The position numbers were made by a program, and so were the translations under genes. From a virus, in the IMG/VR virus record IMGVR_UViG_3300014839_000032, positions 1 through 29,640 of that record: 29,640 nt of DNA, one strand, 5' to 3'. The notes under the pieces were generated by a model. That model saw only the letters and a program-made list of their open reading frames with translations, made no database searches and was not told where the DNA came from. Shown piece by piece: positions 5,057 to 29,625 of this stretch; positions within the stretch are counted from its first letter, which is position 1, and each line of letters starts with the position of its first letter.

Positions 5057-5389
5057 ATGCAAGCAAAAACGAACACGATTGTTTCCATCGGCTTCGCGGC
5101 GGCATTGGCTGTGGCCATTCGCGATAGCCGATTATCGAAGCGAGCTTTTGCCGATGCCGCTGGGCTAAGCCACGCGGCAATCAATAATTACCTCAAAGGC
5201 CGCACTCCAAAGCTCGATGAAGCCTCTAAATTGGCCCGATACCTCGGCGTCACTATTGATGAACTGGTCACTGGAGCTCGGACGCAACCGGGCGAAAACG
5301 CGGGGATCTGGCGCGAGCGAGCGCTGTCAGCCGAGCAGCGGCTCAACTCCGTGAAAGCCGGTATGATCGAGCTAGTAAAAAAAATTTAG
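5057..5389 (+). CDS. XRE-type HTH repressor, likely lysogeny regulator
   Basis: The protein has 110 residues. Residues about 25-75 form a Cro/CI-type helix-turn-helix: KRAFADAAGLSHAAINNYLK is helix 2-turn-helix 3, followed by the typical DEASKLARYLGVTIDELVTG. The C-terminal 35 residues form a short, partly charged helix that could dimerise, with no LexA-like peptidase domain. The start is the ATG at 5057. No Shine-Dalgarno is visible because the operator-like palindrome ends one base upstream. It is divergent from the transposition operon, so the likely role is repression of early genes through that palindrome, including its own autoregulation. The family is clear; the role is inferred from position. 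Confidence 0.8.
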   Translation: MQAKTNTIVSIGFAAALAVAIRDSRLSKRAFADAAGLSHAAINNYLKGRTPKLDEASKLARYLGVTIDELVTGARTQPGENAGIWRERALSAEQRLNSVKAGMIELVKKI

Positions 5390-15730: not shown

Positions 15731-16747
15731 GTGAGCAGCAAATTCATTCCCGCGGTCGCATATGCTTCCGGAATCCTCCGCAAGCCAAATCCGTTTGCTC
15801 CATGCTTCAGCACCGTTGATGCGACGAACCAGGGCATCTTGGTGATGGCTGGAACTGCATTCCTTTTCGCCAACCGGCCCATTGTATTCAATACGGCAAC
15901 GGTAATCCCTATCAACACCGGCGCTTTGGCTGCTGGAACCGACTATGCGATCTATGTCACGTCCTCCGGGCTGCTGATTTTTTCCGCCAATTTCACCGCT
16001 CCTTATGGCTACACAGCGGCGAACAGTTTCAGGGTTGGCGGCTTCCACTTCGCTCCCGGCGGCCCTGCATCGACCGCGCAGACCGGCGGAAATACCACGC
16101 CGCAGATCTTCCCCCCGTCGATCTGGGATCTCCAATTCCGCCCGGCGTGCCCCGACCCGCGCGCGAAAGCATTCTGCCCTGGCGCCGGCTGGGTGTGTCT
16201 CTATCCGCTCAACACCAACCCAGATTTGCTAGGAGCCTCGGCTTACGGCGCACAGATCGCGGATGGCAGCTCGCTGCCAATTATCCCCGCTGCGCGCGGG
16301 GGAAATGGCTCGGCCGCATATCCGGACTTCTCGCGCTTCGTTGCCGAGGAATTACTCGGAGTGTACGGCTTGGAGCTGCTCACGCCGGCCCAGCGCGCGC
16401 ACGCCGCCTACGGCGTCACCGAAGGCACGCAGGCCGGCGCCGATCCGGTGACGACCGGCCTCGATGCGCCGCGGACCTCATGCTTCATGTTTCAGGCCAC
16501 TGGCAATATGTGGGAATGGCTCGCCGGCGATACCACCGACGCGCTCACCACTGCCTACGCCTGGCAGACCACTCCGCAGACGCGAGGCCAGGTCTATCAC
16601 ACAGCCCTCCGGGCTCCGCTCGGCGGTGGCTATTGGTTCTTCGGCGCCGACTGCGGTTCGCGTTGTTCGTACTGGGGCGTCTCGCCGTGGTATTCCTACG
16701 GCAGTTTCGGCGCCCGCGGCCGCTGTGACCACCTGCAACTTGTATGA
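15731..16747 (+). CDS. DGR variable protein, C-type-lectin/FGE-like
   Basis: This 338-residue protein starts at a GTG at 15731. Residues about 1-115 are beta-rich and would attach it to the virion. From about residue 125 it resembles the formylglycine-generating-enzyme-like C-type-lectin fold used by DGR target proteins, with GNMWEWL at 258-264 and the GGGYWFF start of the last strands near 298. The variable repeat encodes residues 298-333. Twelve variable residues are Y301, F303, F304, D307, Y314, G316, V317, Y321, Y323, G324, S325 and F326. The invariant G-S-R-C and G-A-R-G-R-C-D turns hold the fold. Only HLQLV follows the repeat. The fold and role are well supported; the ligand and virion position are not known. 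Confidence 0.88.
   Translation: MSSKFIPAVAYASGILRKPNPFAPCFSTVDATNQGILVMAGTAFLFANRPIVFNTATVIPINTGALAAGTDYAIYVTSSGLLIFSANFTAPYGYTAANSFRVGGFHFAPGGPASTAQTGGNTTPQIFPPSIWDLQFRPACPDPRAKAFCPGAGWVCLYPLNTNPDLLGASAYGAQIADGSSLPIIPAARGGNGSAAYPDFSRFVAEELLGVYGLELLTPAQRAHAAYGVTEGTQAGADPVTTGLDAPRTSCFMFQATGNMWEWLAGDTTDALTTAYAWQTTPQTRGQVYHTALRAPLGGGYWFFGADCGSRCSYWGVSPWYSYGSFGARGRCDHLQLV
16623..16729 (+). repeat. DGR variable repeat (VR)
   Basis: This 107-bp segment at the 3' end of the variable protein matches 17181-17287 at 90 of 107 positions. All 17 differences lie where the template has an adenine (24 adenines in total, 83 non-adenines all identical). This is direct evidence of adenine-specific reverse-transcriptase mutagenesis. 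The last 21 bp, from GGCGCCCGC to GTGAC, are identical and GC-rich, as expected for the initiation-of-mutagenic-homology region. Confidence 0.95.
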
Positions 16748-17181
16748 GCTGCGCGGAAGCGCAGCCAGCGCCCGAAAATGAACCTCGTACCGTCCTCGAC
16801 CCTGCCAGCTCCCTGCAGCACGCCTGCATGGAGCAACTGGCCATCGTCGAAAAGTATGAGGGATTCGTCGACTATGTATATCCGCTGCTCCGCGGACTGC
16901 CGCGGGCGGACTACGTGCTGCGCGACCATGCTACACACGCCGTCCTCGGACAGGTGCTGCTTTTTATCGAGGCGGGAAAGTCCGGCCAGGTCTCGCGGCT
17001 CTACGCCGCCGACGCCGGCATCGCCCACCTCCGTTTCATTTTGCGGTTCTGCGCCGCGCCCACGCGCAAGTTTATCTCGCAGCATCAGCACCGTACCGCG
17101 GCGATTCTCCTCGCCGAGGTTGGTGCGATGCTCGGGGCTTGGGTCAAGCGCGCGCAAGCCGCGAAGAGAGAGCGCGGATAG
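16744..17181 (+). CDS. avd: Avd, accessory protein of the DGR
   Basis: This 145-residue protein begins with an ATG overlapping the variable protein's stop (ATGA at 16744-16747). An ATG at 16828 would give 117 residues, nearer to the usual Avd length, and would leave the target hairpin in a non-coding spacer; either is possible. The core (IVEKYEGFVDYVYPLLRGLP, then a helix ending in HLRFILRF) has the pattern of the Avd four-helix bundle. Avd forms a pentamer, binds the template RNA and reverse transcriptase, and is essential for mutagenic retrohoming in the Bordetella phage BPP-1 system. The stop codon is the first base of the template repeat. Confidence 0.85.
   Translation: MSCAEAQPAPENEPRTVLDPASSLQHACMEQLAIVEKYEGFVDYVYPLLRGLPRADYVLRDHATHAVLGQVLLFIEAGKSGQVSRLYAADAGIAHLRFILRFCAAPTRKFISQHQHRTAAILLAEVGAMLGAWVKRAQAAKRERG
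16748..16765. promoter_or_regulatory. DGR target-site hairpin/cruciform downstream of VR
   Basis: A perfect inverted repeat has a 7-bp stem (GCTGCGC and GCGCAGC) and a 4-base loop GGAA. It starts 18 bases after the variable repeat ends. In BPP-1, a GC-rich hairpin or cruciform with a GRNA-type tetraloop just downstream of VR is needed for efficient target recognition. GGAA fits GRNA. The sequence and position match that known feature; function here is inferred. Confidence 0.7.
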
Positions 17182-17287
17182 CGGTGGCAATTGGAACAAC
17201 GGCGCCAACTGCGGTTCGCGTTGTTCGAACTGGAACAACTCGCCGTGGAATTCCAACAACAATATCGGCGCCCGCGGCCGCTGTGAC
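17181..17287 (+). repeat. DGR template repeat (TR)
   Basis: This is the invariant 107-bp copy. It contains 11 AAC or AAT codons in the target frame, the classic TR signature, because changes at A can then reach many residues without creating a stop codon. All eleven differ from the VR. It starts at the last base of the avd stop and lies upstream of the reverse transcriptase. Both repeats share the GC-rich 3' end. The sequence TGGAACAAC appears twice in it. In the target frame, TR is in frame with the open frame that leads into the RT. Confidence 0.95.
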
Positions 17288-17461
17288 AATCCGACAAGTC
17301 TTTTTCAACTCCGAGCGCTCACGGGCCTCGGACCCGACTACCAAGGTGGTCAGCCGGGCTCTCTCGCTTCGGCAAATACACTACTGGGTGAGGGCGCGGC
17401 GAGTAGCCTCGCGAAAGCGATCGGCAAAACCCGTCAGCCCTCCACTTTTTTCACTTTCTTT
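17288..17461 (+). other. Spacer RNA between TR and reverse transcriptase
   Basis: This 174-base stretch holds no clear separate gene. In the BPP-1 DGR the spacer after TR is part of the RNA and supplies structure for priming. The same is likely here. It is open in the RT frame, with no stop from TR to the RT motifs. No strong hairpin was found by eye. Confidence 0.45.
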
Positions 17462-18454
17462 GTGGGCCAACGTTATAAAAACCTCTTCCCGGCCATCGTG
17501 GCCGATGCCAATCTGCGCATCGCCTATCGCCTTACCGCGCTCGGCAAGCGGCAGACTCTTGGCTTTCTTGCCTACAAGGAGGAATCTGAGGTGAGGCTCG
17601 CTGATCTGCGCAGCGCGCTGCTCGCCGGCACGTATCGGCCTCAGCCGCCGCACGAGTTCTGGGTGTACGAGCCCAAAGCCCGGTGCATCTCGGCACTGCC
17701 CTTCGCCGATCGTGTCGTGCAGCATGCGCTCTATCGGGTGATCGGGCCGATCTTTAACTGCGTGCTGATGGGCCGCTGCTACGCCTGCCGCGTTGGCCTG
17801 GGCACGCATCACGGCGTCGTGGCCGTACAGGCGGAACTTCGCCGGCTCGTGCGCGAGCATGGACCGGAGCAGGTCTATTTTCTCAAGACCGATTTCCGGC
17901 AATATTTCGCGAACATCGACCGCGGGATCCTCTGGCACGAGATCGAGCGCAAGATCAGTTGCCGCCGCACACTCGATTTGATCGAACGCTTCACGCCGCG
18001 CACGGGTACGGGCCTGCCGATCGGCAATCTCACCTCGCAACTTTGGGCCAATATCTACGGTCACATTTTCGACCGCTGGCTCGTCGCGCAAGGCGCGCTC
18101 CACTGGCACCGATATATGGATGACGTCGTCGTGCTCGGCACCGACTGGCGTGCGCTGGCGGCGCTGCTGAAGCGCGCCGAAGCGTTTGCCGGCGAGGCGA
18201 TGGGCCTGCGGCTCTCGCACTGGATGGTGGCACATCACACGCAGGGCATCAACTTTCTCGGCTACCGGATTTTTGCCCGGCACAAGCTACTGCGCCCGGC
18301 GAGCGTGCGCCGTGCCCGCCGGAAGCTACGGCACTTCGCGCGACATGATGAGCCCGAGGCGCGCCAGCGCTTCCTCTCCGCCTGGCTCGGCCATGCCAGC
18401 TGGGCCGACAGCCGCAATCTGCAGCGCAGCCTCGGGCTTATTTTCGCTGGATAA
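17462..18454 (+). CDS. DGR reverse transcriptase
   Basis: With a GTG start at 17462 (begins VGQRYKNLF, the usual start of DGR RTs) the protein has 330 residues. The frame is open upstream through the TR, but no ATG follows the TR, so the GTG is the best choice, without a visible Shine-Dalgarno. Motifs are complete: KTDFRQYFANID (catalytic D144), LPIGNLTSQ at 185-193, the DGR-type motif 4, YMDD at 218-221 and GINFLGYR further on. The C-terminus is basic and would bind RNA. It reverse-transcribes the template RNA with errors at adenines and feeds the cDNA to VR. All catalytic residues are present, so it looks active. Confidence 0.93.
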   Translation: MGQRYKNLFPAIVADANLRIAYRLTALGKRQTLGFLAYKEESEVRLADLRSALLAGTYRPQPPHEFWVYEPKARCISALPFADRVVQHALYRVIGPIFNCVLMGRCYACRVGLGTHHGVVAVQAELRRLVREHGPEQVYFLKTDFRQYFANIDRGILWHEIERKISCRRTLDLIERFTPRTGTGLPIGNLTSQLWANIYGHIFDRWLVAQGALHWHRYMDDVVVLGTDWRALAALLKRAEAFAGEAMGLRLSHWMVAHHTQGINFLGYRIFARHKLLRPASVRRARRKLRHFARHDEPEARQRFLSAWLGHASWADSRNLQRSLGLIFAG

Positions 18455-18462
18455 CGGTTCCT

Positions 18463-18708
18463 ATGCAAACGATCAACACTCGCCAAGACCTCGATGCCCT
18501 CGCCGGCACGCCTGAGCATGCGGCATTTATCGCCGGCCTTAAGGCCTCACTCATCCGCACCCAAGATACCCAGACGTACCCGGAGGACTACAACCAGGAC
18601 CTCAAGCCCGGCGCCGCTGGCTACCTCCCGCCGATCTTCACTGATGTGCCCGATGCGTCGATCGCAGCACGTTATGGCTTCACGCCGGAGCAGCTCGGCC
18701 TCCTCTGA
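18463..18708 (+). CDS. Small acidic protein after the reverse transcriptase
   Basis: This 81-residue protein has an N-terminal helix (TRQDLDALAGTPEHAAFIAG) and a Pro/Tyr-rich second half (TYPEDYNQDLKPGAAGY, then ARYGFTPEQLGL). It starts 9 bp after the RT stop and overlaps the next ATG at TGATG. The composition is natural and acidic. It belongs to the DGR message by position, but no known DGR accessory protein was recognised. It could be a small structural protein. Confidence 0.55.
   Translation: MQTINTRQDLDALAGTPEHAAFIAGLKASLIRTQDTQTYPEDYNQDLKPGAAGYLPPIFTDVPDASIAARYGFTPEQLGLL

Positions 18709-29533: not shown

Positions 29534-29625
<92 letters not shown>

Follow-up and report, generated by a model that had tools for sequence, protein, structure and literature searches.

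A BPP-1-type DGR at an mtd-like receptor-binding gene in an uncultivated phage

Organization of the cassette

The window analysed here is the whole stretch of 29,640 nucleotides of the IMG/VR virus record IMGVR_UViG_3300014839_000032. It contains a cassette whose order is mtd-like gene (with the VR), avd, TR, RF03022 RNA, reverse transcriptase (RT) and bbp4-like gene, with all reading frames intact. The genes and the RNA are the following.

15731 to 16747, plus strand: mtd-like target gene, encoding a receptor-binding tail protein of 338 aa, GTG start (Pfam, PHROG and PDB matches)
16744 to 17181, plus strand: avd, 145 aa (bAvd, PDB 4dwl, DivGenRetAVD)
17307 to 17441, plus strand: Phage_DGR RNA (RF03022, Rfam; 55.3 bits)
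17462 to 18454, plus strand: DGR reverse transcriptase, 330 aa, GTG start, YMDD motif (PDB 8ub7, phrog_1423, alignment with BPP-1 Brt)
18463 to 18708, plus strand: bbp4-like gene, 81 aa, phrog_30757 (49% identity to BPP-1 Bbp4)

The target protein matches the Pfam family mtd_2nd (3e-20), the tail protein family phrog_11262 (6.9e-93) and the Bordetella phage receptor-binding protein Mtd (PDB 1yu3, E 8.5e-52). Avd is recognised by bAvd (5.2e-26), by PDB 4dwl (1.5e-30) and by DivGenRetAVD above its cut-off. The RT matches the RT of PDB 8ub7 (9.2e-96) as well as phrog_1423, its NCBIfam matches all lying below cut-offs, and its YMDD motif is conserved in the alignment with BPP-1 Brt. Since the proteins of relatives begin there, the RT start is set at the GTG at 17462; a 558-aa open frame at 16778-18454, running through avd and the TR, is interpreted as the RT gene extended by read-through on its upstream side. 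The RNA reaches 55.3 bits where the gathering score is 50, a modest margin, and some of its positions are mispaired.

Upstream of the cassette lie genes for terminase, a portal with a Mu F-like domain and capsid, and downstream lie head-tail connector genes. Elsewhere in the window, a tRNA-Ser (GGA) is located at 29536-29625 on the minus strand near the right contig end, either a phage tRNA or host flank. The protein encoded at 456-2702 on the minus strand looked by eye like a transposase, but Pfam, PDB and NCBIfam give no match to it and PHROG only a weak one (E 0.003), to a family without assigned function, and it is not called a transposase here.

Adenine-specific differences between VR and TR

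The repeat pair was realigned and is placed as below.

16623 to 16729, plus strand: VR, identical to the TR save at template adenines
17181 to 17287, plus strand: TR

The two copies differ at 17 of 107 bases. All 17 differences fall on adenines of the TR, of which there are 24, while none of its 83 other bases is changed, just as the initial annotation had claimed; the hypergeometric probability of such a pattern is 1.5e-14, by which a chance origin is rejected. Strict identity stops at 16729/17287, while the definition used for BPP-1 extends the pair to 16742/17300 and so takes in a diverged 3' part (IMH against IMH*). The window holds no second VR, the next-best match to the non-adenine positions reaching 43/83.

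The VR is in frame and forms the C-terminus of the Mtd homologue. At the codon level, the realignment bears out that every AAC/AAT codon is altered (11/11) and that one ATC became TTC. The 12 altered codons now read Y, F, F, D, Y, G, V, Y, Y, G, S and F. The earlier statement that five Tyr/Phe aromatics stand among the first changes was loose: four of the first five changed codons encode Tyr or Phe, and seven of the 12 overall. The reading of the target as a binding surface agrees with the predicted identity of the protein, which is Mtd-like, Mtd being the receptor-binding protein of BPP-1. In BPP-1 Mtd the variable residues are exposed on the C-type-lectin receptor-binding face. The mutable Asn and Ile positions of the window are in register with those of BPP-1, and the variable residues should therefore sit on the corresponding face. 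The AlphaFold model of the Mtd-like protein is poor (mean pLDDT 43) and was left out of the results, so that surface exposure is argued here from homology.

Target site

Three further elements are found around the 3' ends of the VR and the TR.

16708 to 16742, plus strand: IMH, (GC)14 + 21 bp, 28 of 35 bases identical to the BPP-1 IMH
17266 to 17300, plus strand: IMH* at the TR 3' end, 8 of 35 bases different from the IMH
16748 to 16765, plus strand: 7-bp hairpin/cruciform with a GGAA (GRNA) loop (hairpin scan of the window, BPP-1 comparison)

The first 14 bases of the IMH are all G or C, and the eight differences from IMH* are all within the last 21 bases. The hairpin starts 5 nt past the IMH, within the 5' end of avd, and no other 7-bp GRNA hairpin occurs on either strand of the window; random sequence of the same composition would give 0.075 on the plus strand. 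According to the available text of PMC3240598, homing in BPP-1 requires the (GC)14 + 21 bp IMH and also a GC-rich hairpin of 7-10 bp with a 4-nt GRNA loop, located 4-34 bp past the VR. Both the IMH and the GRNA hairpin, as that text describes them, are present in the window.

Two related cassettes

Protein scans together with a TR-pattern scan of viral contigs yield only two related cassettes, in the IMG/VR contigs IMGVR_UViG_3300037107_000128 (L002) and IMGVR_UViG_3300037185_000229 (L003), and find no direct sibling of the window's phage. Their RT is 90% identical to that of the window, and the cassette and hairpin are in common. From mtd start to RT end, L002 and L003 differ at 13 of 2655 bases, of which 12 are in the VR and one in the RNA region. 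The two TRs are identical, and each of the 12 VR differences coincides with a TR adenine (P 1.2e-10), in accordance with the expectation set out beforehand that sibling phages should differ only at such positions. The two contigs serve as a clean natural experiment, their cassettes differing in almost nothing but VR turnover, and such sibling pairs allow the natural mutation spectrum and template drift to be measured without a laboratory system.

Compared with the window, the VR of L002 differs at 21 positions, 18 of them at window-TR adenines, and that of L003 at 15, with 12 at window-TR adenines. The three non-adenine differences (sites 44, 71 and 83) are T in both VR and TR of the window and C in both VR and TR of L002 and L003, which is what copying from the own template predicts. 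Since each VR matches its own TR at these sites, rewriting of each VR from its template took place after the two lineages had separated. The TRs themselves differ at six sites between the window and L002/L003, three of which are adenines in the window TR and not in theirs.

The NG86 dN/dS between the window and L002 is 0.11 for RT, 0.23 for Avd and 0.18 for mtd outside the VR, against 1.95 for the VR; judged by these ratios, RT and Avd are under purifying selection. In the VR, dS is 0.13 and dN 0.25, while in mtd from residue 85 outside the VR dS is 0.66 and dN 0.12. The low VR dS relative to the neighbouring mtd, together with the match of each VR to its own TR, is as predicted if the VR has been overwritten time and again with copies of the TR.

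In the stretches compared, nucleotide similarity of L002/L003 to the window is confined to 15983-18653, so that an exchange of the cassette between phages is probable. A tblastx listing consists mostly of small spurious segments and was not used. Outside the cassette, L002 and L003 are mosaic with respect to each other, blocks of 95.6-99.3% identity being interrupted by replaced stretches, and the C-termini of their tape-measure proteins differ.

Mutation spectrum

The 17 changes in the window VR comprise ten A to T, seven A to G and no A to C. Over the three cassettes of the window, L002 and L003, A to C accounts for four of 44 changes; being so rare, it indicates that incorporation is not uniform or that the outcomes are filtered by selection. 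Adenines preceding another A in the three VRs, a small sample filtered by selection, became T in 13 cases, G in 11 and C in none, with five unchanged. For the BPP-1 enzyme at AAC, the text available from PMC12875486 gives adenine misincorporation, which places T in the sense strand, as favoured at the first A, and the outcomes in the three VRs agree with it in direction. More broadly, 14 TR/VR pairs hand-picked from a survey of the window and 28 loci give 85 A to G, 69 A to T and 38 A to C; nearly all ends of these pairs come from a finder that stops at non-adenine mismatches, hence they are uninformative on A-specificity and serve for the spectrum only. The same finder limit applies to the TR/VR pairs of the 28-locus survey, whose ends may include a few flanking bases.

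The bbp4-like gene and mtd loci without RT

The bbp4-like gene lies 3' of the RT in the window, L002, L003, BPP-1, the Pandoraea locus L013 and the Akkermansiaceae locus L014. In L013 (6001-7216 of a Pandoraea nosoerga contig), a BPP-1-like RT and the bbp4-like gene are found, with mtd, avd and a TR/VR pair not detectable there. L014, from an Akkermansiaceae MAG, has a BPP-1-type cassette in which the Mtd frame appears shifted near the VR (5233-5316), which is either real or an assembly error. No bbp4-like gene is found in the other RT-bearing loci (L007, L011, L012 and L015-L031), some of which end soon after the RT.

A search of the 50,697 records of the phage collection with the bbp4-like protein gives 15 matching records at E <= 0.01. 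Nine of the 15 matches cover at least 80% of the query, five from Bordetella and four from Synechococcus, and all nine records match Mtd too. The one checked among the four, Synechococcus phage S-CBS3, gives no RVT_1 match anywhere along its record. Occurring with mtd and not in the other RT loci, the bbp4-like gene thus seems to belong with this Mtd lineage and not with the retroelement as such. The structure model of the protein is confident (pLDDT 89), but neither PDB (best E 0.51) nor BFVD (best E 0.55) offers a convincing fold match and Pfam gives none, and our search of the open-licence literature found no paper on bbp4 in Bordetella. We tentatively suggest, at somewhat worse than even odds, that the stretch from mid-mtd to the bbp4-like gene is an exchangeable receptor-diversifying module that moves among phages which are otherwise unlike and, jointly, that the product of the bbp4-like gene works specifically with Mtd, for instance as its chaperone or as an adaptor in the tail; the latter part is proposed because the gene still lies beside mtd in the RT-less Synechococcus phage.

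In S-CBS3 (L008, 4305-4574) and in Marinomonas phage P12026 (L009, 4343-4504), the mtd-like genes have weak RT or Avd remnants alongside (E 5e-4 and 2e-5 in single-locus searches), and P12026 likewise lacks an RVT_1 match in its whole record. Both are possible DGR relics. Two records named Escherichia phage T7 (L010) also match Mtd; one of them, LR745708, is annotated as a made T7/BPP-1 tail-fibre chimera and is not a natural relative.

Interpretation

Overall, the cassette shows a TR/VR pair with differences confined to adenines, an RT with an intact catalytic motif, a VR within a binding-protein gene, and Avd. We conclude, with a probability of about 0.96, that the window carries a complete BPP-1-type DGR which would rewrite the VR of the mtd-like gene from the TR. 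By homology, the TR and the downstream Phage_DGR RNA would be transcribed together. The RT with Avd would copy the TR RNA and, as the A-only pattern also suggests, misincorporate opposite template adenines. The mutated cDNA would then take the place of the VR in the 3' end of the mtd-like gene. The IMH and the hairpin next to it, both seen in the sequence, would presumably mark the target, and the master copy would be preserved in the TR. The changed variable residues may let the phage switch the host surface that it binds.

The alternative that survives best is that the DGR was formerly active and is now silent in the window's phage, leaving the VR as a frozen allele in a passively carried cassette. 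The scans of viral contigs found no direct sibling by which VR turnover within the window's lineage could be shown, and there are related mtd loci that have lost the DGR: S-CBS3 and P12026 have mtd-like genes and are without an RVT_1 match. Against this, the reading frames are intact, the RT has a dN/dS of only 0.11 to L002, and VR and TR are still identical at 83/83 non-adenines despite a dS of 0.66 in the neighbouring mtd from the sibling lineage. We therefore regard a silent DGR as improbable, and an element that is functional in the window's phage as the probable state on this comparative evidence. The initial annotation had spoken of recent or ongoing activity, which is well supported for the L002/L003 lineage, and for the window lineage is argued through the VR/TR concordance and the intact cassette.

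An ordinary tandem duplication, with one copy drifted or positively selected and no retroelement, would give two copies of one sequence and could accommodate the VR dN/dS of 1.95, yet drift or selection would not spare 83/83 non-adenine bases, and the TR lies outside the mtd gene with RT, Avd and DGR RNA adjoining; the substitution pattern and the neighbouring genes thus refute it, leaving it next to no probability. Adenine deamination or other A-directed editing of one copy would explain why changes are confined to adenines, but deamination yields A to G, while 10 of the 17 window changes are A to T and the siblings show A to C too, so that the T and C outcomes refute it and its chance is likewise negligible. 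The adenine-specific mutagenesis proposed at the outset is thus upheld by the A-only differences, both between VR and TR and between the siblings, and rewriting by a DGR is the reading we retain.

Comparison with known systems

The DGR family was first found in a Bordetella phage. The gene order of the window is the same as in BPP-1 (AY029185, mtd-avd-TR-brt-bbp4), and the spacing from VR to TR is nearly so, 558 against 556. Identities to BPP-1 are 51% for RT, 46% for Avd, about 38-40% for Mtd and 49% for Bbp4. Both have the RF03022 RNA between TR and RT, a (GC)14 IMH and a GRNA hairpin, which lies 4 nt past the IMH in BPP-1 and 5 nt in the window. The TR translations align without gaps, with 10 of the 11 mutable Asn positions of the window and the mutable Ile in register, the window TR having one more mutable Asn codon. 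Unlike BPP-1, the window RT starts with GTG and the cassette is placed between head genes and head-tail connector genes.

A first scan of genome contigs gave no relatives, and 21 loci were recovered by a second, which used a broader RT alignment. The loci of Chromohalobacter phage YPCBV-1, Bordetella hinzii, Pusillimonas and Halomonas (L007, L015, L017, L018 and L025) have the target-Avd-TR-RT order of the window and TR/VR pairs that likewise differ at adenines; their RT is about 38% identical to that of the window and no bbp4-like gene was found in them, while RF03022 is not reached in L007, L015, L017 or L018. As given in the available text of PMC8144416, a survey counts more than 30,000 DGRs, with phage lineages having tail targets and broad activity in nature. 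The DGR of the window adds to the known BPP-1 subtype, its mechanism being already known and its genomic setting different, and it brings in an uncultivated phage as the carrier of a close and complete relative of the best-studied DGR.
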